Both the position numbers and the translations under genes were made by a program. From Pseudomonadota bacterium (GTDB lineage: Bacteria > Myxococcota_A > UBA796 > GCA-2862545), in assembly GCA_023954855.1 (NCBI GenBank), contig JAGSGY010000057.1:1-34839 (forward strand): a stretch of 34,839 nucleotides of DNA. Reading direction: 5' to 3'. The notes under the pieces are model-generated. The model did no database searches. It saw only the letters and a list, made by a program, of their open reading frames with translations, and had not been told where the DNA came from. Of this stretch, positions 3,773 to 26,212 are shown piece after piece (positions within the stretch are counted from its first letter, which is position 1; every line of letters starts with the position of its first letter).

Positions 3773-4603
3773 CTACTCGACCGTTGCCTCGCCGGTCCAG
3801 ACGGCCGTTCCGCCCACTCCGTCGGTCGCGACGGCGTAGAGCCGGACCAGCGACGGCTCGTCGGGGGCGTACCACCGCATTTCCGCTTGTCCGTTCAAGA
3901 AGGCGAAGGCCGTCAGTCCAAAGCCGCCGCCCGTGGTGAGCCCCATGACCTCGACCACAGACTCGTCTTCGTCGTCCTCGACCGACACCTCGAAGGTGAG
4001 CTCTTCGCCTGCGCTCGAAGTGAAGTCGCCGTCGACGGTGAGGGTGGGGTTGGCATTGCGGTTCTCGGCGTCGCGCGTCGACACCATCAGGCTCTTCGCG
4101 CCCAGGGTCACGCCGGTGAGAGGAAGCTCAGCCACCCAGTCTGTCGGTGTGGCCATGAGCTCTTCGATCGCGTCGGTCGGCGCTTCGGCAGCGAGTGCAT
4201 CGCCGAGTGCATCGAGCTGGGGACACGCGCCGGGCTCGCAGGCAAGAACCCAGAGGGGTGAGGGGATGGGCTCATCGCTTGCGAAGGCCGCCCACGCGGG
4301 GTTCACGGTCAGATCGGCGACGAAGTGGCCGTCGACCAGTTCGCCGACGGCGAGGCGGCCGGCGAGGGGAGAACCGGCCTCCACACATGAGGTCTCGTCT
4401 GCGGGAGTGCAGGCCCAGACCGCCACGGTGGCGCCGGCGCCCAGAGGGTCGGCGAGCAGGACGTCGACGCTCGTCGTCTCGCCGGGAAGTACCTCTGGCG
4501 GCTCAGCGACGGCTGCGATGATGCGGAGCTCGTCGACGAGCGTGTCTTCACTGGGTCCCGGGCTGCAGGCCGCGAGTAGGGCGATGATGGGAAGCAGGCG
4601 CAT
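3773..4603 (-). CDS. Lipoprotein partner of the TonB-dependent receptor
   Basis: The 276-residue product starts MRLLPIIALLAAC, a lipoprotein signal with lipobox LAAC and the modified Cys at residue 13. The rest is acidic and beta-rich, with two Cys-containing stretches (WACTPADETSCVEAG and LACEPGACPQ) that may form disulfides, and a C-terminal region resembling Ig-like or surface-binding folds. The start is the ATG at 4603, which shares one base with the receptor's TAA (TAATG). The GAGGAG ribosome site is seven bases from this ATG but only one base from an alternative ATG at 4609. The tight coupling suggests it works with the receptor at the outer membrane. The ligand is unknown. Confidence 0.75.
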   Translation of the reverse strand: MRLLPIIALLAACSPGPSEDTLVDELRIIAAVAEPPEVLPGETTSVDVLLADPLGAGATVAVWACTPADETSCVEAGSPLAGRLAVGELVDGHFVADLTVNPAWAAFASDEPIPSPLWVLACEPGACPQLDALGDALAAEAPTDAIEELMATPTDWVAELPLTGVTLGAKSLMVSTRDAENRNANPTLTVDGDFTSSAGEELTFEVSVEDDEDESVVEVMGLTTGGGFGLTAFAFLNGQAEMRWYAPDEPSLVRLYAVATDGVGGTAVWTGEATVE

Positions 4604-7107
4604 TACCATTCTCCTCGCAGGCCAAAGGCCGGTAGCGGAGGCAGACCACTGATTGGCGCTTCCTCAGAGTAGTCGGAGTTCCAGGACATGACCTCGACGT
4701 TCTGCGCTCCGGTGATGTTCTGGAAGTCGAGGTAGGCGGTGAGGGTCCAGCGATCGAAGACCCAGTCCTTATCGACGCGGGCATCGACTTGGTAGAAGGC
4801 TGGCAGGCGCGCGCTGTCGGTGGCGCCGTAGACCGGTACGAAGCGTCCCTCGTCGAGGAGCTGGAAGCGGTTGACCACCGGGGTGTAGGGGTTGCCGGAC
4901 CCGTAGCGAACGCGGGCACCGAGCCGCCACTTCTTGGGCAGCTGGTACGAGCCGAGCGCGTTGAGCACGATCGGCTGGTCGAAGGCGAAGAGCTTGGACT
5001 CTTGCCCAGGACGCTTCGTGCGCACGGAGCGTGACGTCGTGGCGCTGATCCATCCGACTGCGCGCTCGGTCTCGAGCTTGAGCTGGGCCTCGACGCCGAC
5101 GATGGTTCCGACGCCGTCGTTGGCGTAGGGGTCGGTGTCGAAGGGGCCGATCGGAGGTGGCCCGGTGAAGAACTCAAAGCGGTCTTCACGGCCGACGACC
5201 AGGTTGGTCAGCCGGTTTGCATAGGCCACGGTCTCGAGGGAGAGCGCGGGGCCCAGGTCCTGCTCTGCGCCGACCGAGAACTGCAGGCTCGACTCGGGGG
5301 ACAGCCGCGTTCCTTCGTCTGCGGCCGTCAAGATCTGGCGGAGCTCCGGGAACTGCGAGTAGCGCCCGGCGCTCGCCTTGATCAGCGTGCTCGGCGTGAT
5401 CTCGGCGGTTGCGGCGAGGCGGGGGTCTACGGCGACGGCGTTGTAGCCGGCACCGCTGAAGAAGGGGTCGATGCGCAGGCCGGGGGTCACCGTGACGGGG
5501 CCGCGCTTGATCGAGGCTTCGGCGTAAGGGGAGGGCGAGAGCCACAGGGTGTCGCCGCGCTCGGGCTCGTAGGGGAAGGCCGGGACGTCGAAGACGAAGC
5601 GCTCGTAGCGGGCCAGCCAGTCGATGCCGAAGCGCCAGCCGATGCGCTCTTCGCTCGGCAGGCGGTAGAACTCGTGGCGCCAAGCGATGTCGAGGTTCTT
5701 CTCGAAGGCCTCTCCAGCAGGGGCGACCTTGAAGATGTTCGCGTCGGGGCCCATCAAGAAGGCCGCTTCGCTGCGCCACCCATCGCCGAGCTCTTCAGTC
5801 CAGCGCACGCGCGCCTTAAGGAAGCTGGTGATGAGGGCAATCTGGACTTCGTCGGGGTCGGCTTCCATGCCGCCGACGACTTTGAAGCGGTCGTCGCTCG
5901 CGAAGACCATGGCATCGAGCATGCCGCGCTCGGTCTTGTGCTGAACGCGGATCTGTCCGTCGTAGTAGCGAGGTGCCTGAACGGCCGCGGCGCCGTTGTT
6001 CAGCAGGGGATTGAGCACCGCATCGATGTACGAGCGCCGGCCCGCGAAGGTGAGTGCGGTCTTGTCGCTGACGCGCTGCTCGACGAAGGCGGTGGCCTGG
6101 TACACATCGACCGACGCGTAGCCGTTTGAGCGCTCGGGCAGCTCACGGGTGGCCCGCAGATCGACCACGCCGCCGAGGGTGCGGCCGTAGCGCACGCCGT
6201 AGTTGCCCGGCAGGAACGAGACCTCGTCGAGGAGGTCGCCGGCGAGCACCGTGGAGAGGCCCGAGAAGTGAAAGACGATCGGTACGCTGACGCCGTCGAC
6301 CGCGTAGCCCGAGTCCTCGGGTGCGGTGCCACGAATCAAGAGCTGCCCGATGTTCAGGGGCGGGCGGGCGACGCCGGGGAGGTTCTGCACAACGCGCACG
6401 ACGTCGCCGTTGGTGCCCGGCAGGTAGCGAATCTCGTCGGCCGAGAGCACGCGCTCGGTGACCTCGGGTGCCGTGCGCTCGCCGAAGACCTCGATGACCT
6501 CGGCGGAGTCGGACTGCCACGGCCTGGAGTTGTTGCCGAAGATCGCAATCTCCGCGACCTTGCCGCCGCTGACGTCGAAGGGCACGAGCTCGGGGTCGAA
6601 GCCAGCGGCCTCGAAGACTGCCGTCCACTCGCCATCGGCGAGGTCGACGAGGGAAAACCGCCCGTCCGCATCGGTCGTGGCGGCTCGACGCTCACCGTTG
6701 GGGCCAGTGAAGCGGAGCGCGATGTCGCCGAGCGGCTCGCGGGTACCGGCGCGCCGCAGTCGGCCTTCTGCCGAGAGGACGGGGGCCGCCTGGGCCTCGA
6801 AGACGTAGCGGTAGAGGATGGTCGCCCGCACCGCCTTGCCGCGCTCGTTCGTCGCGGGGTCAAAGACGAAGGCGAGCACCGCGTCGATCGCCGCCCGGTC
6901 AAAGGCCTCACCGGCGGACTCGACGACCTCGGCCTCGAGCACCATGCCGGTCTCATCCACCACCAGCTGCACCAACACCGCGGCTTCCTCGCCGCTGTCG
7001 AGGGCGTCGGCCGGGTACACCGCCGGTGCCGTCTGCACGAGCACGGGGAGCGTCGGCTCCGCGAGCGCGGTGGCCATGCTGAGGATGAGGGTTGCTAGGA
7101 AGGTCAT
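4603..7107 (-). CDS. TonB-dependent receptor with an N-terminal TonB C-terminal-type domain
   Basis: The product has 834 residues in four parts. Residues 1-16 are a signal peptide. Residues about 20-105 resemble the periplasmic C-terminal domain of TonB (YPADALDSGEEAAVLVQL ... FDPATNERGKAV). Residues about 112-190 are a carboxypeptidase-regulatory-like beta sandwich (GRLRRAGTREPLGDI ... DADGRFSL). The remainder is a plug (LPGTNGDVVRVVQNLPGV, VDGVSVPI, LPGNYGVRYGR) and a 22-strand-type barrel ending in Trp. Such receptors import large or scarce ligands using the Ton motor; the substrate is not evident. The ATG at 7107 has GAGAGG four bases upstream and a well-spaced promoter carrying a CarH-operator-like dyad. 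The next gene overlaps by one base. Confidence 0.9.
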   Translation of the reverse strand: MTFLATLILSMATALAEPTLPVLVQTAPAVYPADALDSGEEAAVLVQLVVDETGMVLEAEVVESAGEAFDRAAIDAVLAFVFDPATNERGKAVRATILYRYVFEAQAAPVLSAEGRLRRAGTREPLGDIALRFTGPNGERRAATTDADGRFSLVDLADGEWTAVFEAAGFDPELVPFDVSGGKVAEIAIFGNNSRPWQSDSAEVIEVFGERTAPEVTERVLSADEIRYLPGTNGDVVRVVQNLPGVARPPLNIGQLLIRGTAPEDSGYAVDGVSVPIVFHFSGLSTVLAGDLLDEVSFLPGNYGVRYGRTLGGVVDLRATRELPERSNGYASVDVYQATAFVEQRVSDKTALTFAGRRSYIDAVLNPLLNNGAAAVQAPRYYDGQIRVQHKTERGMLDAMVFASDDRFKVVGGMEADPDEVQIALITSFLKARVRWTEELGDGWRSEAAFLMGPDANIFKVAPAGEAFEKNLDIAWRHEFYRLPSEERIGWRFGIDWLARYERFVFDVPAFPYEPERGDTLWLSPSPYAEASIKRGPVTVTPGLRIDPFFSGAGYNAVAVDPRLAATAEITPSTLIKASAGRYSQFPELRQILTAADEGTRLSPESSLQFSVGAEQDLGPALSLETVAYANRLTNLVVGREDRFEFFTGPPPIGPFDTDPYANDGVGTIVGVEAQLKLETERAVGWISATTSRSVRTKRPGQESKLFAFDQPIVLNALGSYQLPKKWRLGARVRYGSGNPYTPVVNRFQLLDEGRFVPVYGATDSARLPAFYQVDARVDKDWVFDRWTLTAYLDFQNITGAQNVEVMSWNSDYSEEAPISGLPPLPAFGLRGEW

Positions 7108-7125
7108 TCGGCCTCTCTTGCATGT

Positions 7126-7177
7126 AGTCTAAGAGGCCTTTGCGTACCGTGCAAGGGTTTTGTATATGGTTTGCACG
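7126..7177 (-). promoter_or_regulatory. Promoter of the TonB receptor with an operator resembling that of the crt locus
   Basis: In the receptor's direction, TTGCAC (7154-7149) and TAGACT (7131-7126) are separated by 17 bp and look like -35 and -10 boxes. A dyad with 7-bp arms, CGTGCAA and TTGCACG, spans 7148-7177 and covers the -35 box. Inside it, in gene orientation, is CCATATACAA followed by TTGCAC, the same order found in the crt divergent promoter at 19143-19161. A MerR/B12-type regulator gene ends 55 bp upstream at 7232. Binding by that protein is inference. Confidence 0.6.
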
Positions 7178-7231
7178 ATGTTTGTTAGAGGTTGTGGCGC
7201 AGGATGGCTCTGGCCCCGCTCGGAGCCGGGA

Positions 7232-8095
7232 CTACAGGTGGGGGTAGAGCTGATCCAGTGAATCGCAAAACATCGCGCCATCCGGTGCTTTGGCGCGCAT
7301 CGGGATGCCGGGTCCGCCCATCGCCAGCAGCGTCCCCGATGGGAGCATCGCCACGAGATCGCGTGCGTGAGCCGCGAGATCCTTGCCCGCAGTCGGCATG
7401 ACCACAGACTGACAGACGGTCTGGGCCTGGGTAGTCTTCGCGATCTGGGCCACGTCCTCGCTCGGGAGGTTGGCGCCCACGTAGGTGACCGAGCAGCCGT
7501 GAAGCGCCAGCTTCACCGCGACGGCGAGCAGCCCGTTCTCGTGGTGGTCCCCTGGAAATCCAGCCGCGACCACGTGATGACCGCCCGGTCGATCGAGGGC
7601 GGTGAGCATCGCGAGCATCTGGCCGCGGCAGTACGCCGAGACATTGTGCTCTTCCGCGACGCTCGCTTCTCCGGACTCCCACAGGTCGCCGATCCAGATC
7701 AGCAGCGGCATGTACACCCGGTCCACCCGTTCTGCGAAGCTCACCGAGACCAAGCGGGCCTGAAGGGTGTGCACACGCTGCGCATCAAACTGGCGAAGGG
7801 CCGCCCCGAGTTCGTCTCGGACCCAGTCGAGGCCGTGCGCATCGGGCTTCGCGGGTCCACCCTCGTTACGCAAGATCTCGGCGACTTCGCCGATGCGGTG
7901 GCCGGAGGCCAGCAACTCCTGCACGCGCTGAAGCAGCTGCACGTCGGAGGGCGAGTAGTAGCGGTAACCGTTGGCAGCGCGAACCGGCGCGATTATGCCG
8001 TGGCGACGTTCCCAGGAGATTAGCGTCTGCCGGGAGATACCGGTGAGCTCGGCGACCCGCTTGACCCGAAGATGAGTGGACTGTGCGATCTTCAT
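7232..8095 (-). CDS. MerR-family regulator with cobalamin-binding domain, CarH/LitR type
   Basis: The 287-residue product has a MerR winged-helix DNA-binding domain (about 10-75: VKRVAELTGISRQTLISWER), a helical cap domain (about 90-165) and a Rossmann B12-binding domain (about 172-287). The cap has the Wx9EH signature (W139, E149, H150), and the B12 domain has DxHxxG (D183, H185, G188), with H185 the expected lower axial ligand. CarH proteins bind adenosylcobalamin, repress as tetramers in the dark and release DNA in light. Glu140 replaces the His that follows the Trp in Thermus CarH. The ATG has AAGG seven bases upstream. The gene lies just before the TonB receptor and is its likely regulator. 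Confidence 0.88.
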   Translation of the reverse strand: MKIAQSTHLRVKRVAELTGISRQTLISWERRHGIIAPVRAANGYRYYSPSDVQLLQRVQELLASGHRIGEVAEILRNEGGPAKPDAHGLDWVRDELGAALRQFDAQRVHTLQARLVSVSFAERVDRVYMPLLIWIGDLWESGEASVAEEHNVSAYCRGQMLAMLTALDRPGGHHVVAAGFPGDHHENGLLAVAVKLALHGCSVTYVGANLPSEDVAQIAKTTQAQTVCQSVVMPTAGKDLAAHARDLVAMLPSGTLLAMGGPGIPMRAKAPDGAMFCDSLDQLYPHL

Positions 8096-8139
8096 GCATC
8101 GCCTTTGTACCCTCTTTGCCGCCGTTGTTCATCTCCGGG

Positions 8140-9351
8140 CTAGTCCTTCGCGATGGGCTCGAGGACCTGGATGCGGTTCTGCAAGTACACGGCGACCCAG
8201 ATCGTGCCGGGGAAGGGCTCGTCATCGGCCTGGGCAGTGACGTCCAGCGGCCAGGCTCCGATGGCGCGGGTCAGTACGCGCGAAGTGCCGTCTGGGTGCA
8301 CGTCCCAGAGCTCGCCTGAGAACGAGACGGTGAGCAGGTGTCCCTTCAGCGCGCCCCCCATCGACTCGCTGGTGTACTCGGTCAGGCCGTTGGTCGACGA
8401 GCCGAACTGGGCGATGCTCGACGGCTTGGCAGCTTGGTATATGCACTGCCGCGGGTCCGTCTGTCCGCGGACAGGGTTGGCGTGCCCTCCGTAGGTGCCG
8501 GGCTCGATGCGGTGCAGCGTGTCCGGGGCGGTCTCTCCGCCTTCGTCGGGTCGATGCGAGCAGTCTGTCGGCGAGCCTCCCCAGGTTCGGTTCGGGCCGT
8601 TGTCGGTCGCGTAGACCTGGCCGGCTTCGCTCACCACCAGGTCGTAGGGGTTGCGAAAGCCCGGCGCATACACCGAGGCCCCGGCGTCGAGAGCGGTGAG
8701 GTCCACTGAGAGGATGGCGGCTGAGAGTGCGGTCTCGCGCTGCATCGAGAAGCTCTTCGAGGGGGCTCCTTGGTTCGTGCTGCCGCCCTGGGCGATCAAC
8801 AGGCGGTCGCCGAGTCGGGCGATTCCGTGCGGCCCGTGGTCCTCCGCGGAGCGGGGCAGGCCGGTGACCAAGTCCTCGCGAGTCCAGCCCTGGTCGGACT
8901 TGGTGAGCCGCGAGAGCACGCCGGATTCGGGGTCAATGCCGAGTGGGGTGCCGCCCTTGTCGCCGAGGCGCGGATCGCTGGAGGTGGCGTAGATCACGGG
9001 CTGATCGGCCGTGCCTTCCACCAAGATGCCGGTCACGAGGCGGGTCTTTAGGTCGGGCCGAGCCGTGCCATCGTCGTCGCGATTGGGGATGGCCTGAAGG
9101 GTCGGGATCGTCTCGACCGCGGACACCGTGTAGCGGCCGGGACCCAGTCGCTCGATGCTCAGAGCCTGCACAGCGCCGTCGAGCTGCGCGACGTACAGCC
9201 GGCCGTCTGGACCAAAGTCGAGCGAGGTGGGCTTGTCGATCTCGGTGAGCCGGCTGTGCACGAACCGTATCGGAGTGCCTTCGATCTCGGCATGCTGGAT
9301 CCCGGCAGGTACGGGGGCCGCGAGAGCGAGCTGGGCCAGGAACAAGAACAC
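8140..9351 (-). CDS. Secreted PQQ-type glucose/sorbosone dehydrogenase-like beta-propeller
   Basis: The product has 403 residues, with a signal peptide MFLFLAQLALAAP followed by repeated beta-propeller blades. Characteristic stretches are PTSLDFGPDGRLYVAQ, HGPHGIARLGDRLLIAQ, APGFRNPYDLV, YATDNGPN and GTYGGHANP, which fit the glucose/sorbosone dehydrogenase (GSDH) family. Members oxidise sugars in the periplasm with PQQ, though many relatives have no proven activity. The GTG start at 9351 is chosen because AGGAGG lies four bases upstream and the signal peptide begins there; the frame is open much further upstream without sense. The MerR gene follows 44 bases after its stop on the same strand, so they may share a transcript. 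Confidence 0.8.
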   Translation of the reverse strand: MFLFLAQLALAAPVPAGIQHAEIEGTPIRFVHSRLTEIDKPTSLDFGPDGRLYVAQLDGAVQALSIERLGPGRYTVSAVETIPTLQAIPNRDDDGTARPDLKTRLVTGILVEGTADQPVIYATSSDPRLGDKGGTPLGIDPESGVLSRLTKSDQGWTREDLVTGLPRSAEDHGPHGIARLGDRLLIAQGGSTNQGAPSKSFSMQRETALSAAILSVDLTALDAGASVYAPGFRNPYDLVVSEAGQVYATDNGPNRTWGGSPTDCSHRPDEGGETAPDTLHRIEPGTYGGHANPVRGQTDPRQCIYQAAKPSSIAQFGSSTNGLTEYTSESMGGALKGHLLTVSFSGELWDVHPDGTSRVLTRAIGAWPLDVTAQADDEPFPGTIWVAVYLQNRIQVLEPIAKD

Positions 9352-9406
9352 CGTGCCTCCTGCTGTCGAAGCATAGGGCAAACCCACCACCCAAGTGCGA
9401 CCGTCC

Positions 9407-9994
9407 CTAGCGGCTGCGCAGGGCCTGGTCTTGCTCGCGGGCAGCGCCGAGCACTCGTGGAAAGGGGAGGTCGCCCGCCACTGCGAGCAGCGCAGCGTGC
9501 ATCTGGTAGGCGCAGCGCGCGGCGGGCATGCGGCCAACGGCCGTCGCGAGCCCGGGGCAGAGGACGGTCTCGATGGCGTCGGCCCCGCTACCGTTGTGGG
9601 CCTCGGCTGCGAGGAGGGCTGCGCGAAAGGCGAGGTAGGCGTTGGCGCTGCCGGACACGTCGAGGGGAACCCGCATGGTGGGCGCGGAGATCAGCCAGGG
9701 AATCGCGGTGTTCTCGGTCGGCACCACCGTAGCGAGCCCAACCAGCAGCTCACCGTGAAAGTCGGCTTGAATCTTCTGCTGCAAGCGCTCCGAGAGGTCC
9801 CAGCCGAAGTGTCGGGAGTAGACGAGGTCGATGCCTCCATCCATGAAGCCGAACGAGTTCGCTGGACTCACGATCGCGTCGCAGGCCACATCGAAGATGT
9901 CGCCCTGGCTGATCGTGACGTCGGCGCGAGACCCGAGCTGTGCCTGCCAGGCGTCGACCACTTCGGCGCTGCGGTCGCGGAGATGAATGTGCAT
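9407..9994 (-). CDS. Macro-domain protein (ADP-ribose binding)
   Basis: This 195-residue protein is a single macro domain. Residues about 30-65 contain GDIFDVACDAIVSPANS and the Gly/Asp-rich loop MDGGIDLVYS, the usual ADP-ribose-binding elements, and a later segment (CPGLATAVGRMP) fits the second phosphate loop. Macro domains bind or remove ADP-ribose or related nucleotides. This one has PAN rather than the common NAAN, and a variant glycine loop, so enzymatic activity is uncertain. The ATG at 9994 follows AGAGGAG. It is upstream of the GSDH gene on the same strand, 55 bp apart, with no evident functional link. Confidence 0.85.
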   Translation of the reverse strand: MHIHLRDRSAEVVDAWQAQLGSRADVTISQGDIFDVACDAIVSPANSFGFMDGGIDLVYSRHFGWDLSERLQQKIQADFHGELLVGLATVVPTENTAIPWLISAPTMRVPLDVSGSANAYLAFRAALLAAEAHNGSGADAIETVLCPGLATAVGRMPAARCAYQMHAALLAVAGDLPFPRVLGAAREQDQALRSR

Positions 9995-10249
9995 GGTGGC
10001 TCCTCTTTGATGTCTATCGCATCTAAGGTGGTGGTGGAGCCTTCCAACAGAAGAACGCTCGACTCGGATGAGTACGTCAAGGAGAGTTGACGTGTCGGAT
10101 TGCCGGGTTGGCAATCGCTCATTTCGCCGGCCTCTCCATAAGGATGCGGTGGAAGCTGGCGGGCTGGGGGCCGTCACCCGCTGCCCGAGACGCATGCAGC
10201 CCTGGATCTGGGGACCGGGTTGCGGCCATGCTTGTCCCAGGAGAGTCCA
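9995..10249. promoter_or_regulatory. Divergent intergenic region with an inverted repeat
   Basis: This 255-bp gap separates the macro-domain gene from the lipoprotein at 10250. It contains a perfect 7-bp inverted repeat, GATTGCC (10098-10104) and GGCAATC (10110-10116), with a 5-bp loop. No T run follows, so it is more likely an operator or mRNA hairpin than a terminator. No clear -35/-10 pair was found. Confidence 0.4.
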
Positions 10250-12482: not shown

Positions 12483-13997
<1,515 letters not shown>

Positions 13998-16938: not shown

Positions 16939-18065
16939 GCGGCCTCCCGGTCGGCACGTCGTGGATAGGTGCGGCCTGCCCAGCTCACGCCGATGGAGCG
17001 GGTCCGTCGAGCGCTGTCGACGGCGAGGGCCATCAAGCCGAGCACCGCGAAGGGGTGCGAGAGAATCGTGGATGGGTGGTGCCCTCCCCACATCGCGAGA
17101 AGCGTGCGCGTGAGCAGGTTGGCGCCTACGCCCACCGCTCCGGCGACGAGGAGGGGCCCTCCTCCGGTCAGCAGGCCCACCGCCAGGAGGACGTACGGCA
17201 GAACGAAGGCGATGGCGTAGAGCGCGATGGCCATGAAGAGACGCTCGGGTCGCTCCCCGAGTCCTTCGTACAGGTTCTTCGTGAAGCCCTGCCAGAGTTC
17301 GGCCCCCGAGCCGTACATCCGGCAGTGCGCCAAGTCCTGACCATCTGCGAAGACGACGCGCTCGCCGAGCTCCTTGGCCCGTCGGCAGAACGCCATGTCA
17401 TCGACCACTTCCGCCTTCACGGACTCAAAGCCGCCGATGCGATGGTAGGTCTCGGACCGCATACTGAGCACCTGGCCATTCGCCGCGAGAAAGCGAGGAT
17501 CTCCACTCGCCCAGACCAGGGGCAACGGAAGCCACGCGGTGTAGGTGAGTGCGAGCAGTGGCATGAGGTGGGCTTCGGTGCGGGTGCCGGTGACTTGCTT
17601 CGGAAACACGGTGCTCACCCCTGCTTCGTAGCGCTGAGCCAGGTCGAACAGTCGGGAGATCGCGTCGGGCTGGAGCGTGACATCGGCGTCCACAAACACG
17701 AGGCGGTCGCCGCGAGCCGCTCGGGCGAGGTGGTGGCAGTTGTGCGGCTTACCGACCCAGCCGGCGGGAAGGGGAGGGGGACAGATCACCCGCAGGCGTC
17801 GGTCCTCCGCAGCGATTCGGGACAAGATCTCGCCGGTGTCATCGGTCGACGCGTCGTCGCCCACGATCACCTCGCCCTCAGCTGGCAATGCTGCGAGTGC
17901 TGCCCGAACACAGGCTTCGATGCTCTCCTGTTCGTTTCTTGCGGGGATCAGGATGCTGACCGTCTCCTCAGCCGCGACGCCGGGCCGTCCGCGTGGCCAG
18001 AACGCCAAGTTGAAGGCGGTCATGCCCAGCGCGCCCAGAGCGGGAAGGGTGAGTGCGAAGATCAT
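16935..18065 (-). CDS. Membrane family-2 glycosyltransferase, probable carotenoid glycosylation
   Basis: The 376-residue protein has an N-terminal membrane helix (about 1-22), a GT-A catalytic domain and C-terminal hydrophobic helices (about 285-350). The catalytic domain shows SILIPARNEQESIEA, VGDDASTDDT and the DAD metal-binding motif at 126-128, followed by GFESVKAEVVDDMAF. This layout resembles the carotenoid glycosyltransferases CrtQ and CruC. Its likely job is to attach a sugar to the tertiary hydroxyl made by CrtC, before acylation by the next enzyme. The ATG at 18065 overlaps the crtC stop as ATGA; upstream in-frame starts lie inside crtC. Confidence 0.82.
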   Translation of the reverse strand: MIFALTLPALGALGMTAFNLAFWPRGRPGVAAEETVSILIPARNEQESIEACVRAALAALPAEGEVIVGDDASTDDTGEILSRIAAEDRRLRVICPPPLPAGWVGKPHNCHHLARAARGDRLVFVDADVTLQPDAISRLFDLAQRYEAGVSTVFPKQVTGTRTEAHLMPLLALTYTAWLPLPLVWASGDPRFLAANGQVLSMRSETYHRIGGFESVKAEVVDDMAFCRRAKELGERVVFADGQDLAHCRMYGSGAELWQGFTKNLYEGLGERPERLFMAIALYAIAFVLPYVLLAVGLLTGGGPLLVAGAVGVGANLLTRTLLAMWGGHHPSTILSHPFAVLGLMALAVDSARRTRSIGVSWAGRTYPRRADREAA

Positions 18066-19114
18066 GCGACCCCCAGCAGGCGCGCGATGCGGCCCTGGCG
18101 GGGTCCCGCGAACAGCGGCAACCACATCGAGTTTGGGCCCTCGGGCCTGTGCACACACATCGCGATCAGCGGCCGCTGCCAGTCGCGATCAATGCGGTGG
18201 GTGTCGCAGACTTCCCCCACACCGGGTGCAGTGCCCAACTCTGTCCCTACTTTGCATAGGGTTCGCTGATAGAACGGGCCGTCGTCCGGGCGGTGCTCGA
18301 CGTGGACCTGCATCCACCGGTCCTCGGCGACCAGCGAGAGCGTGGGGCGCCAGCGAAGCCCCCAGAGATTGGACCGCTCGGGGGTGGTGACGACCTGGGC
18401 CGGACGCGCTTCGCACCGGCCATCCGCATGAATGTCGACGAGCGTGGCCTTGCACTCGCCCTGTGCGTTCCACAGGGCGTAGGCGATTCGAGTGCGATCG
18501 CCGACCACAGCACGCGCCCAAGTCCACCGTGCGACCCCGAGGTCCTCCAGGCTTGCGAGCCCCGCGTTCCGGTCGATGTAGGCCGAGCCCTCCCCACTAA
18601 AGCTGCGATCGGACATCTCGAGGTTCCAGCGACCGTGCGCGGGTCCACTGAGCGGGCACCACTCGTGCTGGTCGTGATCGAGAGGTGCGGCATCGACGGG
18701 TTGTCGAGGCGTGCCCCGTACCTGAAGGGTCCCCTGCAGGCGTCCCCCGGGCCCGTCGAGATCCAGCCTCGCGTCCAGAGAACCATTGGTGAACGCGAGA
18801 GTGCTGCGGCCAAACGTCAGCGAGTGTCCGTCGGCGGCAGCTTGATCGGGAGGGAGCTCCTGCAGCAGGTAGTACACGCACACGCCAGCCTCGTAGATCG
18901 AGAGCGCGATGGACGGGCGCTCCCCCGCCTCACGAGCCTTTCCCCGGCGAGCCGCGCTCGCGTAGCCGGGCAGAAAGGGCAGCCCCCACGAGGCGATGGC
19001 GACCACACCGTTGCCGCGATCGTCAAGGAGATCGACGTACCACCAGCTGAAACCTCCAGGGCTCTGAAGGGCGCCTGGGAGGGGGGTGTCGGATGGATTG
19101 GTGATACGAAGCAT
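18062..19114 (-). CDS. crtC: Carotenoid 1,2-hydratase, CrtC family
   Basis: The 350-residue protein starts like the CrtC family, with SPGGFSWWYVDLLDDRGNGVV, and has the later stretches CPLSGPAHGRWNLEM, WTWARAVVGDRTRIAY and NLWGLRWRP. CrtC adds water across the terminal double bond of acyclic carotenoid ends to give a tertiary 1-hydroxyl, the site later glycosylated. The ATG at 19114 is chosen because AAGGG lies seven bases upstream and the family similarity starts there; it lies at the edge of the symmetric divergent promoter, so the leader must be very short. It is the first gene of the minus-strand operon. Confidence 0.85.
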   Translation of the reverse strand: MLRITNPSDTPLPGALQSPGGFSWWYVDLLDDRGNGVVAIASWGLPFLPGYASAARRGKAREAGERPSIALSIYEAGVCVYYLLQELPPDQAAADGHSLTFGRSTLAFTNGSLDARLDLDGPGGRLQGTLQVRGTPRQPVDAAPLDHDQHEWCPLSGPAHGRWNLEMSDRSFSGEGSAYIDRNAGLASLEDLGVARWTWARAVVGDRTRIAYALWNAQGECKATLVDIHADGRCEARPAQVVTTPERSNLWGLRWRPTLSLVAEDRWMQVHVEHRPDDGPFYQRTLCKVGTELGTAPGVGEVCDTHRIDRDWQRPLIAMCVHRPEGPNSMWLPLFAGPRQGRIARLLGVA

Positions 19115-19175
19115 GTGCAAACCCTTGACGAGCGTTGTACATCCATATACAACGGTTGCACAGGGTTTGCAAATG
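19112..19175. promoter_or_regulatory. Symmetric divergent promoter and operator of the carotenoid locus
   Basis: The 58 bp between the two start codons form concentric dyads centred at 19143/19144. The start codons themselves (CAT 19112-19114 and ATG 19173-19175), an outer pair TGCAAACCCT (19116-19125) and AGGGTTTGCA (19162-19171), and an inner pair CGTTGTA (19133-19139) and TACAACG (19148-19154) all share that centre. Candidate plus promoter: TTGACG 19125-19130, 17 bp, TACAAC 19148-19153. Candidate minus promoter: TTGCAA 19172-19167, 17 bp, TATATG 19149-19144. The promoters overlap, so one bound CarH-like repressor could silence both arms. Promoter boxes are predicted, not proven. Confidence 0.75.
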
Positions 19176-20375
19176 TCCACTCCGACCACTCACATCGCCA
19201 TCGACACCGAGGTCCTCATCGCGGGATCCGGTCCCGCTGCGCTCTGCCTCGCGGCGGCTTGTGCGGTGCGTGGGCTTCGCGTGATGGTCGTTTCAGATGC
19301 GCCTGAGCAGCCGTTCGAGGCGACCTACGGTGTGTTCGCAGACCAGCTGCCCGCTTCGCTCTCCGCTGCTGTTCAGGCGTCTTGGCCGACGGTGATCTTT
19401 CGCAGTGCGCTGGGAGACCGTCGGATCTCGCGTCCCTACGTGCGACTGAACAGCACCACCTTGCACAGCCTTTTGCATGGCGCACTTGCACAGGGTTGCA
19501 CGGTACGGGCCGGCCGGGTCAGTGTCGTTCGCGAAGAGGCGGACGTGTTCGCGGTCGAGCTGGCTTCCGGCGAGGTCCTACGGGCCCGTCGTGTGATCGA
19601 CTGCACTGGTCATGCGCGTGCGTTGCACTCGAAGCCGAGTGGCGGACTGGCCCAGCTCGCTCTTGGAGCCACACTCAGCGGCGCGCACGGTCTGACCGAG
19701 CCGCTCCTCATGGACTTTGGTGGACCGGAACGCGGCACCTTCCTCTACGCACTTCCCCTGACGAGCACCGAGCTCTTCGTCGAGGAGACCGCGCTCATCA
19801 CCGAACGCTCGCCCAACTGGACGCGAATGGAATCGGACCTGCGCGCGCGGCTCGACGCCATGGGACTTGTGGGCGAGCTTCACGTGCACGAGCGCTGCGT
19901 CATTCCGATGGATGCGTCGCTTCCGGACCTCACCTCGTCAGTGCTCGCGTTTGGAGCCGCGGCGGGCTTGGTTCATCCGGCGACCGGGTACCAGCTTGCG
20001 GCGTGTCTTGCCCTGGCAGAGCCCATGGCCGACCGTTTGGCCAACACCCTCGATGACGATGCCGCCTCTGCTGCGGCGTCCGTCTGGGAAGTGCTCTGGC
20101 CGTCCGACCGCCTCCGCGTGCGCGGGCTTCGCGTGTTCGGCGCTCGATTCGTCGCCTCGCTTGATCATGCCGATCAGGCCGCCTTCTTCGACGCCTTCTT
20201 TCGGATTCCACCCCACCTTGTTCGGGCCTACCTCGGCCACGACACCGGGATGGCCGAGACCTGTGACGCGATGCTTCGCGTCTTCCTAGCGCTGCCTTGG
20301 AGGCTTCGGTGGAAGCTCGCCCGCGTCGGCGTCGCCCAGCCCATGCCCATCGTTCGACCCCTTTTCGCTCTCTAG
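19173..20375 (+). CDS. crtL: Lycopene cyclase, FAD-dependent CrtL/CrtY type
   Basis: The 400-residue protein has the Rossmann start VLIAGSGPAALCLAAACAVRG. It then has ATYGVFADQL, equivalent to the YGVW/YGVF element of lycopene cyclases, and YVRLNSTTLHSLL, the segment that precedes the cofactor site. A C-terminal stretch, FGAAAGLVHPATGYQLA, is a strong family signature. The enzyme closes a beta-ionone ring on lycopene or a hydroxylated derivative without net redox change. With CrtC acting on the other end, a monocyclic carotenoid is expected. The ATG at 19173 has AGGG upstream within the operator. crtE follows nine bases after the stop. Whether it adds one or two rings cannot be read from the sequence. 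Confidence 0.83.
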   Translation: MSTPTTHIAIDTEVLIAGSGPAALCLAAACAVRGLRVMVVSDAPEQPFEATYGVFADQLPASLSAAVQASWPTVIFRSALGDRRISRPYVRLNSTTLHSLLHGALAQGCTVRAGRVSVVREEADVFAVELASGEVLRARRVIDCTGHARALHSKPSGGLAQLALGATLSGAHGLTEPLLMDFGGPERGTFLYALPLTSTELFVEETALITERSPNWTRMESDLRARLDAMGLVGELHVHERCVIPMDASLPDLTSSVLAFGAAAGLVHPATGYQLAACLALAEPMADRLANTLDDDAASAAASVWEVLWPSDRLRVRGLRVFGARFVASLDHADQAAFFDAFFRIPPHLVRAYLGHDTGMAETCDAMLRVFLALPWRLRWKLARVGVAQPMPIVRPLFAL

Positions 20376-20384
20376 GAGGCCCCT

Positions 20385-21455
20385 GTGTCGCTTGAACCTC
20401 ACGTCCGTCTCGTTCCCCCGCTCCCTAGCGCTGATAGCTCCGCCACGGTGGAGCCGATGGAGGCCGTCCATCACCTGATGATTCGCCTGGCTGCCGGGGA
20501 AAAGCTCGAACGTTGCGGAGCCATGGTGGTCGAGCATCTCACGACTGGCGGAAAGCGCATTCGCGCCCACCTAGCGATGGCAGCGAGCCAGGCGCTTGGC
20601 GGTGAGCCGGGTGCAGCGATCCCCTGGGCAGCGGCCTGCGAGCTCCTGCACAATGCGTCGCTTGTTCACGACGACCTGCAGGACGGTGACCGCATGCGTC
20701 GGGGGGCCCCGACCTTGTGGGTTCGCCATGGCGAGGCACAGGCCATCAACGCGGGTGACTTGCTGCTGATGCTCCCGACCCTCGCGCTCGACGAGCTGAA
20801 GACGGACGATGGCGTGCGCTGGGGACTCTCGAGGGCGCTTGCACGCTTCGCAGCCGACACGGTTCGCGGACAGAGCCTCGAGATGAGCCTGCTCGATAGC
20901 CGGCGCTTTACCTGGGCCGACTACATGCGCGCGGTTCAGGGCAAGACCGCCGGCTTCTTTGCACTCCCCATCTTTGGCGCAGCCCTGCTCGCCGGACGGA
21001 CGCGGGCCCAGGCGACCGCGCTCGCGGACGAGTTTGGTCGAATCGGCTCGATCTTCCAGATTCAAGACGACGTCATCGATCTCTACGGGGAAAAGGGACG
21101 TGGTGCCGTGGGCGCGGACATCCGCGAGGGCAAGGTGTCGGCTCTGGTGGTGGAGCACATGCGGCTGTACCCCGAAGAGTCCGAGTGGCTCTACGAGGTG
21201 CTGGCGACGCCGCGCGAGGAGACCTCGGATGAAATGGTGGCGGAAGTGATTCGCCGCTTCCGTGACGGCGGCGCCCTCGAGGAAGTCCTCGACCGCATCT
21301 ACTCCCTCGCCTCTGAGACCTACCGGTCGAGCCTGTTGCTCGACGAACCCGGCCTGCGGGTCGTGGCCATGAACACCCTCGAGAAGGTTCTCGCTGGCGT
21401 TCGACTCTTGGAACCCTCTCTCCCCATCGACGAGACCGTCGGAAGGAACGCATAA
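20385..21455 (+). CDS. crtE: Geranylgeranyl diphosphate synthase
   Basis: The 356-residue protein is a trans-isoprenyl diphosphate synthase. It has the first Asp-rich motif DDLQD in SLVHDDLQDGDRMRRG, the upstream GGKRIR substrate site and the second Asp-rich motif DDVID in FQIQDDVIDLYGEKG. Small residues before the first motif are consistent with a C20 product, and the operon context makes GGPP the expected one. The GTG at 20385 is used because AGGAGG lies five bases upstream. The final TAA overlaps the crtI start as TAATG, so translation is coupled. The N-terminal 25 residues are a little longer than in many homologues. Confidence 0.9.
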   Translation: MSLEPHVRLVPPLPSADSSATVEPMEAVHHLMIRLAAGEKLERCGAMVVEHLTTGGKRIRAHLAMAASQALGGEPGAAIPWAAACELLHNASLVHDDLQDGDRMRRGAPTLWVRHGEAQAINAGDLLLMLPTLALDELKTDDGVRWGLSRALARFAADTVRGQSLEMSLLDSRRFTWADYMRAVQGKTAGFFALPIFGAALLAGRTRAQATALADEFGRIGSIFQIQDDVIDLYGEKGRGAVGADIREGKVSALVVEHMRLYPEESEWLYEVLATPREETSDEMVAEVIRRFRDGGALEEVLDRIYSLASETYRSSLLLDEPGLRVVAMNTLEKVLAGVRLLEPSLPIDETVGRNA

Positions 21456-22978
21456 TGACCAAGCCCATTGTGATTATTGGTGCCGGATTCGGCGGACTCT
21501 CTGCAGCGATTCGTCTGCGCGCACGCGGCTGGCCGGTCGTGGTGCTCGAGGCGGGCGACCAGGCCGGCGGTCGGGGTCGCGTGTTCGAGCGTGACGGACA
21601 CAGCTTCGATGCCGGTCCTACGGTCATCACTGCGCCGTACCTGATCGAGGAGTTGTTCAACCTCTTGGGCCGCAACCTCGACGACTACGTCGATCTCGTG
21701 CCGGTGGACCCCTTCTACCGCGTCCGATTCCACGACGGAGGGCACTTCGACTACACCCAGGACGAAGAGCGGCTGCTGCCGCAAATCAAGGACATCAACC
21801 CGCGCGATGTCGACGGCTACCTGGCCATGGCCGAGCACAGCAAGCGCATCTTCGAGATTGGCTACGAGCAGCTCGCGCACGTGCCATTCGACAGCGTCAT
21901 GGACATGATTCGCGTGGCGCCGCACATGATGCGCCTCGGAAACTACAAGAGCGTGTACAGCATGGTGGCGTCCTACATCAAGGACGAGCGCCTGCGTCAG
22001 GTCTTCACCTTTCAGCCGCTGCTGATTGGCGGAAACCCGTTCACCGCGAGCTCCATCTACCTGCTGATTCACTGGCTCGAGCGCAAGTGGGGCGTGTGGT
22101 TCCCGAAGGGAGGAACGCACGCGCTGGTGAAGGCGATGGTGCAGGTCCTCGCCGAGGTCGACGTGCCCGTGCACATGAACTCCCCCGTGGAGGAAATTCT
22201 CGTCTCGAATGGCAAGGCCACTGGCGTTCGCCTTGAGAATGGCGAGGTCATCGAGGCCAGCCATGTGGTGAGCAACGCGGATCCGAGCTTCACCTACGGT
22301 CAGCTGATCAAGTCCGAGCACCGCAGCAAGCACAGCGACCGCCGGGTCAAGAACGTGCGGCAGTCCATGGGGCTCTTCGTCGGCTACTTCGGTGCCGAGG
22401 GCGACTACAACGACGATGTCATGCACCACGAAATCTTGCTCGGACCTCGGTACAAGGGGCTTCTGAACGACATCTTCAACCGTCGGGTCCTAACGGACGA
22501 CTTCAGCCTATACCTGCATCAGCCGACCCGTACCGACCCGTCGCTCGCACCGGAGGGCAAGTCCAGCTTCTACGTGTTGTCGCCGGTTCCGAACCAGAAG
22601 TCGGGCATCGACTGGGACCAGGAGGGCGAGGCCTACTTCGACCGAATTCTCGAGCACCTCGAGGGCCGCCTCATGCCAGGCCTTCGCGACCGGATCACGA
22701 CGAAGTTCCATGTGACGCCGCGCTACTTCGAAGAGGAGCTGCGCACGCCCGACGGCGCCGGCTTTGGCCCCGAGCCGACGCTCACGCAGTCGGCGTGGTT
22801 CCGCTACCACAACCGCTCCGAGGATGTGGAGGGCTTGTTCTTCGTCGGCGCAGGAACTCACCCTGGCGCCGGTGTACCCGGTGTGATCAGTAGTGCGAAG
22901 GTGCTCGATCGCGTCGTTCCGGACCCCAAGTTGGCCATTCCACTTCCGAGCCAGGTGCTTGGACGGGTGGCGAAATGA
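21455..22978 (+). CDS. crtI: Phytoene desaturase
   Basis: The 507-residue protein is a full-length CrtI. It carries the FAD motif VIIIGAGFGGLSAAIRLRARG, the GGRGR element, the family stretch FDAGPTVITAPYL and the C-terminal FFVGAGTHPGAGVPGVISS. It introduces double bonds into phytoene to give lycopene or a shorter desaturated product; the number of steps cannot be told from sequence. The ATG shares one base with the crtE stop, and its TGA overlaps the crtB ATG as ATGA, so the three enzymes are translationally coupled. Confidence 0.92.
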   Translation: MTKPIVIIGAGFGGLSAAIRLRARGWPVVVLEAGDQAGGRGRVFERDGHSFDAGPTVITAPYLIEELFNLLGRNLDDYVDLVPVDPFYRVRFHDGGHFDYTQDEERLLPQIKDINPRDVDGYLAMAEHSKRIFEIGYEQLAHVPFDSVMDMIRVAPHMMRLGNYKSVYSMVASYIKDERLRQVFTFQPLLIGGNPFTASSIYLLIHWLERKWGVWFPKGGTHALVKAMVQVLAEVDVPVHMNSPVEEILVSNGKATGVRLENGEVIEASHVVSNADPSFTYGQLIKSEHRSKHSDRRVKNVRQSMGLFVGYFGAEGDYNDDVMHHEILLGPRYKGLLNDIFNRRVLTDDFSLYLHQPTRTDPSLAPEGKSSFYVLSPVPNQKSGIDWDQEGEAYFDRILEHLEGRLMPGLRDRITTKFHVTPRYFEEELRTPDGAGFGPEPTLTQSAWFRYHNRSEDVEGLFFVGAGTHPGAGVPGVISSAKVLDRVVPDPKLAIPLPSQVLGRVAK

Positions 22979-23964
22979 GCTCGTTACCAGCGATAACCGC
23001 CAGAGAGGTGCTCGCCCAAGGATCTCGAAGTTTCGGCTTTGCGGCGCGCTTTCTGACCGCGGATCAGTGGGACGATGCGGCGGCGGTGTACGCCTTCTGT
23101 CGCATGGTCGATGACGTCGCCGACGACGAGACGGTGCCGGTGTCGGTTCGACGCGCGTCGCTGGCGATGATCCGGTCCGAGGTTCGTGGGGCCAGCGTGG
23201 CCCGGCCGGAGGTTGGGGGGCTTCTCGAGGTGGAGCGTCGTTGCGCGCTCGACCGGCAGGCCGCGCTCGCTCTGATCGATGGCTGCGAGTCAGACCTCGG
23301 CGTGGTGCGCGTTCAGAATGACGCCCAGCTTCTCGGGTACTGCTACCGCGTCGCCTCCACGGTGGGGCTGATGATGTGCGGTGTGCTGTCCGTGTATGAC
23401 CGCGATGCCAAAGCCTTTGCCATTGACCTCGGCATTGCCATGCAGCTCACGAACATCTGCCGTGATGTTCTCGAGGATGCGGCGAATGGTCGGGTCTATC
23501 TACCTGAGAGTCGCCTGAGGGCAGTGGGCGTGGCCCCGGACGCGCTCTGTAGCGGCCAGGCCAGTGAAGTCGCCGTTGCAAAGGTTGTTCTCGACCTGCT
23601 TGATCTCGCCGACACCTACTACGCTTCGGCTCTTCATGGGATGCGGTATCTGCCCATTCGGGCGAGATTCGCCATCATCGTGGCGTCGCGGGTGTATCGG
23701 CGCATCGGGCTCGTCCTGAGAAGACGGGGAGGAAATGCCCTGCTGGGACGTGCGGTGGTGCCCTTCTCTGGAAAGGTCATCGAGGCGTGCTGGGCGGTGG
23801 GGTCCTTCCTTCGACCCTCTGTGCTCGGCATCGGGCCAGGGCAGAGGCACGACGCTCGCTTGCACGCCGATCTTCAGGGCCTTCCCGGGGCCCATCGTGC
23901 GACGGGAATCACGGACGGGTCGCGAGGCCAGTTTCGGGCCGTCTTCTCTACGCATCAAACCTGA
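22975..23964 (+). CDS. crtB: Phytoene synthase
   Basis: The 329-residue protein is a squalene/phytoene synthase. It has SRSFGFAARFL near the N-terminus, the first Asp-rich motif DDVAD in AFCRMVDDVADDE, and the second signature QLTNICRDVLEDAANGRVYLP. It condenses two GGPP molecules to phytoene at the membrane. The ATG at 22975 overlaps the crtI stop as ATGA. The last 50 residues or so are Arg/Gly-rich and poorly conserved. The carH-like gene starts eight bases after the stop. Confidence 0.92.
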   Translation: MSSLPAITAREVLAQGSRSFGFAARFLTADQWDDAAAVYAFCRMVDDVADDETVPVSVRRASLAMIRSEVRGASVARPEVGGLLEVERRCALDRQAALALIDGCESDLGVVRVQNDAQLLGYCYRVASTVGLMMCGVLSVYDRDAKAFAIDLGIAMQLTNICRDVLEDAANGRVYLPESRLRAVGVAPDALCSGQASEVAVAKVVLDLLDLADTYYASALHGMRYLPIRARFAIIVASRVYRRIGLVLRRRGGNALLGRAVVPFSGKVIEACWAVGSFLRPSVLGIGPGQRHDARLHADLQGLPGAHRATGITDGSRGQFRAVFSTHQT

Positions 23965-23972
23965 GGCTCCGC

Positions 23973-24854
23973 ATGTACTGGATCAAGACTGTGTCGGAGA
24001 TGACCGGAATTCCGAAGAACACGCTGATTGCGTGGGAGAGGCGGTATGGACTCCTAAAGCCCGAGCGTTCTCCATCTGGGTACAGGGTGTACAGCGCTGA
24101 GGACCTCGAGGTGCTCGAGCGCGTGAAGGAGCTGATGAAGGCGGGCTACCGCATCTCCCAGGCTGCCGAGATGGTGCAGCGGGCTCCGCCCGGCCGGCAG
24201 GGGACGCAGCCGGAGATAGCGCCGGAGGGGCTCGACGGGCTTCGCGGCGCTCTGCTTGTAGCGTTGCTGGACTTCGACCGTCATGCCGCAGACCGGCTGG
24301 TTCGGACGGTGGTGACGCTTCCGTATGAGGCCCAACTCGACGAGCTCTATCTACCGGTGTTGCAAGAGACTGGGCACCGCTGGGAGGCGGGCGAGGTGAC
24401 GACCGTACAGGAGCACTTCGTATCGGCGTGGTGTCGCGAGCAGATCTTGGTCATGGCCCGCAGCCTCGAGTCGGGGGGGCCGCGAGCACCGCTCGCCATT
24501 TGTGCGACCCCCGCCGGCGAACACCACGAGTTTGGCTTGCTCGGCGCCGCCTTTCGTCTCGCGAATCGCGGCTATCGGCTGGTGTACTTGGGAGCGGATG
24601 TACCCACGGACCAACTCCTGGACCTCATTCGGGCGCGGAAACCGGCCCTCGTGGCCATCTCGGTGGTGATCGAGCGTGAAGGCTTTGACCTGCCGCTCTA
24701 CGCCGAGCAGCTCTTGGAGGCGCTCGAGCCGGATGGTCGGCTCCTCGTCGGTGGGAGGGCCTCGCAGAAGTGGAGGGCCAAGTCGTCTGGGCGCGTGTCC
24801 TACGGGGCGGGCCTGGAAGCCGCGGATGCCGTTGGCACCCCATTCGGGCGCTAG
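23973..24854 (+). CDS. carH: B12-binding MerR-family light-responsive repressor, CarH/CarA type
   Basis: The 293-residue protein ends the plus-strand carotenoid operon, like carA and carH in the Myxococcus car operon. It has a MerR domain (about 4-70: TVSEMTGIPKNTLIAWERRYG), a cap domain with Wx9EH (W137, E147, H148) and a B12 domain with ExHxxG (E183, H185, G188). This makes it a likely adenosylcobalamin photoreceptor repressing the crt promoters in the dark. As in the paralogue at 7232, Glu (E138) follows the cap Trp where Thermus CarH has His132. The ATG at 23973 has GAGG six bases upstream; the longer open frame from 23787 overlaps crtB. The choice between a CarA-like and CarH-like role is open. 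Confidence 0.88.
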   Translation: MYWIKTVSEMTGIPKNTLIAWERRYGLLKPERSPSGYRVYSAEDLEVLERVKELMKAGYRISQAAEMVQRAPPGRQGTQPEIAPEGLDGLRGALLVALLDFDRHAADRLVRTVVTLPYEAQLDELYLPVLQETGHRWEAGEVTTVQEHFVSAWCREQILVMARSLESGGPRAPLAICATPAGEHHEFGLLGAAFRLANRGYRLVYLGADVPTDQLLDLIRARKPALVAISVVIEREGFDLPLYAEQLLEALEPDGRLLVGGRASQKWRAKSSGRVSYGAGLEAADAVGTPFGR

Positions 24855-24917: not shown

Positions 24918-24982
24918 AACCCGGACTATCGTGTGTGCTGATCTTGGCCCCTTCCTTGCAGATTGGACTGCGAGGAGGTGCG

Positions 24983-26212
24983 ATGAAGGAACTGCTCGTG
25001 CTGGGCGCCGGAACGGGTGGCTCGCTGATGGCGAACAAGATGGCGCGGATGCTGCCCGCCGACTGGCGTGTCACGGTCGTCGACCAAGATGACAAGCACA
25101 TCTACCAGCCGGGTCTACTCTTCGTGCCCTTCGGCGACTTGAGGCCCGACGAGCTTGTTCGTCCGCGCATGAACCTCATCAGCTCGGATGTGCGTCGCAT
25201 CATCCAGCCCATCGATCGCATTGACCCCGAAGCCAAGACGGTGGCTCTCGGCGACGGCACCAAGCTGACCTGGGACATCCTCGTGGTCGCGACGGGCGCT
25301 CAGATCCGCCCGGACCAGACCACCGGGATGACGGGGCAGTTCTGGCGGAAGGACCTGCACGAGTTCTACTCGCTCGAGGGCTCCACCGCCTTGGCGCAGC
25401 GCCTCGAGCGCTTCGAAGGGGGGCGGCTCGTCGTCAACTTGGCGGACATGCCGATTAAGTGCCCAGTCGCACCTCTGGAGTTCACCTTCCTGGCGGATGC
25501 CTGGCTCAAGAAGCAGGGCCTGCGTGACAAGACAGAGCTCGTGTTCGTGACCCCGCTCGATGGCGCGTTCACCAAGCCGACAGCCGCTCGTGCGCTGGGC
25601 GGCATGCTCGAGAATCGCAACATCTCGGCGGTGACGAACTTCGCGTTGTCTGACATCGATGCAGACCGTCGGGTGGCGCGTTCCTACGACGGCCGCGAGG
25701 TCGACTTCGACCTGATGGTGACGGTGCCGCTCCACGGTGGCGCTACCCCAATCCGGGCGAGCGGCCTCGGCGATGATCTCGGCTTCTTGCCGACCCACAA
25801 GCACACGCTCCAGAGTCGCGACTACCCGCACATCTTCGCCCTCGGGGACGCCACCGACCTTCCCATCTCCAAGGCCGGGGCGGTGGCCCACTTCCAGGGC
25901 GATGTCCTGCCCGACAACATCCTTCGGTACATCGATGGGCGGCCTCTCTGGCCTGGGTACGACGGGCACGCGAACTGCTTCATCGAGACGGGCCACAACA
26001 AGGCCATGCTCATTGACTTCAACTACGACACCGAGCCGCTTCCGGGACGCTTCCCGCTGCCTGGAATCGGGCCGTTCTCGCTGCTCGCCGAGAGTGAGAT
26101 CAACCACCTCGGAAAGCTCGCGTTCAAGTGGGCCTATTGGAACGTCCTGGTCAAGGGCGACGAGTTGCCGCTGGACCACCGCATGCTGATGTACGGCAAG
26201 AGGAGCGGCTGA
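24983..26212 (+). CDS. Sulfide:quinone oxidoreductase-like flavoprotein
   Basis: The 409-residue protein is an FAD disulfide-oxidoreductase-type enzyme of the SQR/FCSD group. It has the FAD motif LVLGAGTGGSLMANKMA, the ATGAQIRPDQ segment, the second FAD site FALGDATDLP and a C-terminal amphipathic region suited to membrane contact. Only two cysteines are present, C160 in IKCPVAPLEF and C332 in GHANCFIETG. They match the redox pair of SQR; the third Cys of classical type I enzymes is missing. It likely oxidises sulfide to sulfane sulfur and passes electrons to quinone. The ATG at 24983 has GAGGAGG upstream. Its TGA overlaps the next ATG (TGATG). Confidence 0.85.
   Translation: MKELLVLGAGTGGSLMANKMARMLPADWRVTVVDQDDKHIYQPGLLFVPFGDLRPDELVRPRMNLISSDVRRIIQPIDRIDPEAKTVALGDGTKLTWDILVVATGAQIRPDQTTGMTGQFWRKDLHEFYSLEGSTALAQRLERFEGGRLVVNLADMPIKCPVAPLEFTFLADAWLKKQGLRDKTELVFVTPLDGAFTKPTAARALGGMLENRNISAVTNFALSDIDADRRVARSYDGREVDFDLMVTVPLHGGATPIRASGLGDDLGFLPTHKHTLQSRDYPHIFALGDATDLPISKAGAVAHFQGDVLPDNILRYIDGRPLWPGYDGHANCFIETGHNKAMLIDFNYDTEPLPGRFPLPGIGPFSLLAESEINHLGKLAFKWAYWNVLVKGDELPLDHRMLMYGKRSG

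Follow-up and report, generated by a model that had tools for sequence, protein, structure and literature searches.

Genes of the receptor and carotenoid loci

The window (the whole stretch of DNA that was analysed, 34,839 nucleotides of a 6.1-Mb genome) carries a TonB-dependent receptor gene with a lipoprotein gene behind it, a set of carotenoid (crt) genes, and two genes for regulators of the CarH kind, one at each locus:

3773..4609, minus strand: 278-aa lipoprotein, overlapping the end of the receptor gene; two Ig-like domains predicted (tblastn, alignment, model with pLDDT 91.6, fold search)
4603..7107, minus strand: TonB-dependent receptor with an N-terminal TonB_C domain, a carboxypeptidase-regulatory-like domain, plug and barrel (Pfam and structure match)
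7232..8095, minus strand: CarH-like MerR regulator beside the receptor, with Pfam MerR_1 and two B12-binding domains and the motifs Wx9EH, DxHxxG, GxxW and GxxxP
18062..19114, minus strand: crtC-like carotenoid 1,2-hydratase (NF045922, below the equivalog cut-off)
19173..20375, plus strand: lycopene cyclase (PF05834, E 3.8e-66)
20385..23964, plus strand: genes for a crtE-like prenyl synthase, a crtI-type desaturase and a crtB-like phytoene synthase (Pfam and NCBIfam)
23973..24854, plus strand: second CarH-like MerR regulator, at the end of the crt operon (Pfam, motifs), 68% identical to the crt-linked regulator of the sister species

The plug and barrel of the receptor both score above their Pfam cut-offs, which places the protein among the TonB-dependent receptors. 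Structure comparison gave Z scores of up to 30.7 (to FecA, over 547 residues, rmsd 3.5); as a guide to the cargo it was uninformative, FecA, Fiu, BauA and BtuB scoring about alike. A TonB C-terminal-like domain sits at the N terminus, ahead of the plug, and such a domain is also part of the resemblance between residues 21-346 and the myxochelin receptor MxcH (NF038079). The resemblance is confined to this N-terminal part, however, and the receptor reaches 71.9 bits against an equivalog cut-off of 925.

Nearly every receptor orthologue is followed immediately by the lipoprotein gene (tblastn, 79 loci), with weaker matches at the equivalent place in a few Bdellovibrionota, and the potential target of regulation is thus a two-gene outer-membrane module. 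A Pfam search with the lipoprotein gave nothing convincing, and its fold search returned generic Ig-like matches only, with poor TM-scores. The gene order is like that of BtuB-BtuG of Bacteroides, in which a conserved lipoprotein gene also follows that of a TonB receptor, but the lipoprotein of the window differs in its two predicted Ig-like domains.

Two other genes of the window may be mentioned. That at 12483-13997 (minus strand) encodes a lipoprotein-like protein in which a NosD-like segment comes after a long Thr-Asp repeat. That at 24935-26212 (plus strand), after the crt-side regulator, scores above the NCBIfam cut-off for "type III sulfide quinone reductase, selenoprotein subtype", its frame being open without the need for TGA read-through.

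The two CarH-like regulators

CarH is known mainly as a light switch of carotenoid genes. Both regulators of the window score above the Pfam cut-offs for the MerR DNA-binding and B12-binding domains. In an alignment, Wx9EH and the B12 motif D/ExHxxG...SxT/V...GG, as defined in PMC9304148, are intact in both, and the light-responsive signature GxxW, EH, GxxH, GxxxP (PMC11796333) reads GDLW/EH/GDHH/GANLP and GHRW/EH/GEHH/GADVP. They are called CarH-like here because they fall below the cut-off of the NCBIfam CarH equivalog NF052513, with 120 and 142.3 bits against 400. Among the genomes searched, nothing close to the receptor-side regulator was found, the best identity being about 42%.

A shared operator of tandem 11-bp repeats

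A preliminary description of this DNA had noted a word, CCATATACAA, followed by TTGCAC, in the promoters of both the receptor and the crt genes, with GTGCAAACC elements beside each. Both observations are borne out. CCATATACAA lies at 7169-7160 (minus strand) upstream of the receptor and at 19143-19152 (plus strand) between crtC and the lycopene cyclase gene; TTGCAC follows after 5 bases at the receptor (7154-7149) and after 3 bases at crt (19156-19161), and exact copies of GTGCAAACC are found at 7176-7168 (minus strand) and 19115-19123 (plus strand). With one mismatch allowed, 0.11 copies of CCATATACAA are expected in the window; two exact copies were observed, a number reached in no shuffle. 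A word search of the whole 6.1-Mb genome found exact copies at the receptor and crt sites only and no copy of the backwards pattern. The looser pattern TATACA-N4-8-TGCA has four matches in the genome, two of which are the receptor and crt sites; of the others, one on contig C153 was accepted by a crt-trained weight matrix (20.0) and the remaining one was rejected.

What kind of element is shared? It is better read as a run of tandem 11-bp direct repeats, nnnnTnnACAn, than as a dyad. Purified CarH binds such tandem repeats, often with degenerate neighbours (PMC9304148). Read in this way, the window contains the following sites:

7147..7190, minus strand: CarH-type operator of the receptor, four tandem 11-bp repeats (CTCTAACAAAC, ATCGTGCAAAC, CATATACAAAA, CCCTTGCACGG) ending 39 bp before the receptor ATG
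7126..7154, minus strand: possible promoter of the receptor, TTGCAC (7154-7149, within the last repeat), a 17-bp spacer and TAGACT (7131-7126)
8101..8135, minus strand: weak repeat-like site just upstream of the receptor-side regulator (matrix score 12.9, the third distinct site of the window and at about the 99th percentile of control windows)
19110..19174, plus strand: crt operator, six near-11-bp repeats with T at 19114, 19125, 19136, 19146, 19157 and 19168

The 58-bp gap between the divergent crtC (start 19114) and cyclase (start 19173) genes is made up almost entirely of repeat units. By strict count it leads all triple-repeat sites of the window, and it qualifies as a CarH-type array, and the sister species carries the same crt operator. 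At the receptor, the strict TnnACA count of the best three repeats is 9/12, level with background (p 0.06), so that the window alone would not prove an operator there; the site counts as a CarH-type array (at least three tandem 11-bp units, degenerate ones allowed) only by way of the crt-trained matrix.

This matrix was built from 14 crt operators of other genomes (42 repeat units), the crt site of the window and all receptor sites being excluded. In the window the held-out crt site came out on top, at 27.5, and the receptor site was next (23.1 with three repeats, 26.6 with four), the best score elsewhere being 12.9. Shuffles that keep the dinucleotide content reached neither the crt nor the receptor score (p 0.002, the floor of 500 shuffles), and the receptor operator of the sister species, whose receptor is 79% identical, likewise gave a shuffle p of 0.002. 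(A MAFFT alignment of the short operator sites was gapped.)

A promoter scan found no clear promoter for the receptor. The candidate TTGCAC-17-TAGACT is weak, falling below the cut-off of the scan; at the equivalent position, the sequence of the sister species reads TTGCAC-17-CAGAAT.

The operators closely resemble those of the CarH-controlled crt promoters of Myxococcales, Thermus thermophilus and Bacillus megaterium (PMC9304148): tandem 11-bp nnnnTnnACAn repeats with degenerate neighbours at crt genes, a MerR regulator with Wx9EH and the B12 motif, and a -35-like element within a repeat. Unlike in those systems, such an operator here also precedes a TonB receptor-lipoprotein pair. PMC9304148 makes no mention of TonB, and a literature search, with most subscription journals outside its coverage, turned up no paper in which a TonB receptor is under CarH or LitR control.

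Similar sites were also sought in the rest of the genome. The strict triple repeat, allowing two mismatches, gave 58 hits against 20 for the backwards pattern, too much background for use. A hit with one mismatch on contig C32 was rejected as an operator, resembling DnaA boxes (TTATCCACA), and one with two mismatches on contig C41 was rejected as resembling the palindrome of an adjacent TetR-type gene. (The C32 region, L180, G000:C32, around 13379, holds a cluster of TTATCCACA-like DnaA boxes and is possibly a replication origin.)

A second light-response-like island lies on contig C103 (L177, G000:C103:1-16000, about 4062-12339), with two CarH-like paralogues that are 69% identical to each other alongside fasciclin, CIA30, DUF1990, NAD-binding, TspO and photolyase-like genes. 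The only perfect strict triple 11-bp repeat of the genome lies upstream of the fasciclin gene of this island. The repeats there are TGAACA-like, and those of crt and the receptor TGCACA/TATACA-like; two residues before WERR of the recognition helix, the C103 pair has Arg where the crt and receptor regulators have Ile. These differences suggest two CarH-like sub-regulons, with the receptor belonging with crt.

Conservation upstream of the receptor

The motif proved to be conserved upstream of orthologous receptors, a check proposed in the preliminary description. Under a strict rule (three TnnACA at an 11-bp lag, at least 10/12, no more than 350 bp upstream of the receptor), 10/38 receptor upstream regions passed, compared with 7/2084 control windows taken from these loci, and enrichment peaked at the 11-bp lag only. 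Of the true crt operators, 8/22 satisfied the rule. With the matrix, 16/35 receptor upstream regions scored above the 99th percentile of controls, as against 10/950 control windows (Fisher p 5e-19); one of the 16 was not blind, the test region in L095 having been shifted upstream to the CarH-receptor gap after the gap was seen, and the counts are not independent, many of the genomes being incomplete and related. In L074, three perfect repeats lie upstream of the receptor. About half of the receptor orthologues have no operator by the matrix. Additional receptor orthologues yielded no new operator sites, and there was no operator signal among the Bdellovibrionota and other distant receptor relatives, of which 1/32 passed. 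The presence of the shared operator and its conservation before the receptors are well supported.

These results bear on two other ways of accounting for the receptor site. The first is that two promoters happen to share similar AT-rich words. The strict count at the receptor, which is no better than background, is what this reading would predict, but the restriction of CCATATACAA to these two sites in the genome, the matrix rank in the window, the enrichment before orthologues under both composition-preserving and neighbourhood controls, and the perfect triple repeat in L074 make chance the least probable of the explanations. The second is that another regulator is at work, for example a dimeric protein reading a GTGCAA-N16-TTGCAC dyad; the preliminary description had spoken of a dyad at the receptor site. 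The inverted arms are indeed present there. However, they are 16 bp apart at the receptor and about 35 bp apart at crt, while the 11-bp register is kept, and the enrichment before orthologues is specific to the direct-repeat lag; the dyad was therefore given up for direct repeats, and a reader of the dyad is highly improbable.

The occurrence of the operator also follows that of CarH. In the family to which the window belongs, the operator was found in 9/13 genomes with a CarH hit and in 0/3 without; across the order, at a matrix threshold of 16, the figures are 13/26 and 0/8 (p 0.013, a soft value, since the genomes are related and incomplete).

Gene neighbourhoods in relatives

In some relatives the receptor is found in the company of carotenoid genes. 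In L075 (PKDJ01000249.1), a 12/12 operator lies between crtC and crtL, and crtE, crtB, the receptor and the lipoprotein come next, all on one strand; the receptor therefore looks co-transcribed with the carotenoid genes, apparently in one operon with crtL-crtE-crtB. The L074 receptor has crtC and a gene for a glycosyltransferase upstream of it. A CarH-like gene adjoins the receptor in L095, L097 and L106. The regulators of L095 and L106 fall into the subfamily of the C103 paralogues and that of L097 into the crt-type clade, and the association of CarH with the receptor thus seems to have arisen more than once.

The preliminary description had tied each of the two sites to a nearby gene for a B12-binding MerR protein. 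A CarH-like gene does adjoin the receptor in the window, but it is absent from that place in the sister species, which, like many other relatives, has kept the receptor operator. Proximity does not establish which regulator acts at which site, because the DNA-binding domains are similar and operator-bearing relatives often lack a nearby regulator. The operator would accordingly appear to be older than the neighbouring regulator.

Does the operator serve the receptor at all? The CarH site could serve mainly the neighbouring regulator, or be a relic of gene traffic between the crt and receptor loci, with the receptor not truly regulated. Such a reading could draw on the lineage-specific nature of the receptor-side regulator, which lacks close relatives, and on the weak site before the regulator itself (8101..8135), which may point to possible autoregulation. 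On the other hand, the operator is located between the 3' end of the regulator gene and the start of the receptor gene, and its retention before the receptor in the sister species and many relatives that have no adjoining CarH makes this reading most unlikely.

Cargo of the receptor

Could the receptor import B12 itself, which the preliminary description had named as one possibility? In the whole genome a cobalamin riboswitch was hit just once, immediately before the gene of a different TonB receptor, which is BtuB-like and sits on contig C89. The receptor of the window is absent from the genome's BtuB-model hits, with 20.5 bits against the NF007926 cut-off of 836. Import of B12 is therefore not supported, and B12 is an unlikely cargo. 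(None of eight loci examined for the genome's BtuB-like receptors has an operator at a matrix score of 13.) The receptor is alike to BtuB in its TonB-dependent fold and in structural score, but differs in falling so far short of the BtuB cut-off, the riboswitch-linked receptor being a separate gene.

The same evidence bears on the idea that the operator serves B12 homeostasis, a CarH-like B12 sensor shutting off a cobalamin importer when AdoCbl is plentiful. An operator and a B12-binding regulator adjoining a TonB receptor would suit such a circuit, as would the weak similarity to BtuB, although the structural match is a general one, tied with those of other receptors. Apart from the riboswitch and the missed cut-off, the receptor is linked to crt genes rather than B12 genes in the relatives examined, and B12 homeostasis is quite unlikely to be the purpose of the operator.

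A probable light-responsive outer-membrane module

The interpretation that best accounts for these observations, and one that is quite likely to be correct, is that the CarH-type operator at 7190-7147 controls the receptor and lipoprotein module by AdoCbl-dependent repression in the dark and release in the light, with expression alongside the carotenoid genes. In the known systems, AdoCbl-bound CarH represses in the dark and light destroys the AdoCbl form (PMC9304148). By analogy, one or both of the AdoCbl-loaded CarH-like regulators would bind the repeats in darkness, covering the promoter and keeping the module silent, presumably by blocking RNA polymerase as described in PMC9304148. In the light, the cobalt-carbon bond would be broken, the regulator released and the promoter left free, and the module would then be expressed together with the carotenoid genes. 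Light and B12 control of the module is thus suggested by the operator, the regulator and the synteny taken together. The proposal of the preliminary description, that a single CarH-type regulon joins the crt genes to an outer-membrane receptor, gains support from the operator and its conservation.

Judging from the sequences, a transporter is probably part of the light response of this bacterium and of many related ones. Whether the receptor-lipoprotein pair is a core part of a CarH light regulon across this order of uncultured bacteria is evenly balanced. If it is, light would directly govern how a specific compound that accompanies carotenoid production is taken up or handled at the surface. 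Membership of the receptor pair in a CarH regulon would place traffic across the outer membrane, too, under the control of light and B12. Such a regulon would offer a clue to what a conserved family of transporters does, and a route to further light-controlled genes in uncultured bacteria.

One such gene may lie on contig C153 (L254, G000:C153, around 42248), where a crt-like operator with a matrix score of 20.0 stands about 30 bp before the gene for a 454-aa lipoprotein without a Pfam match, a possible further member of the regulon. This operator and that of the receptor have AACATCGTGCAAAC in common, and the lipoprotein gene lies downstream of a gene for an outer-membrane efflux protein.
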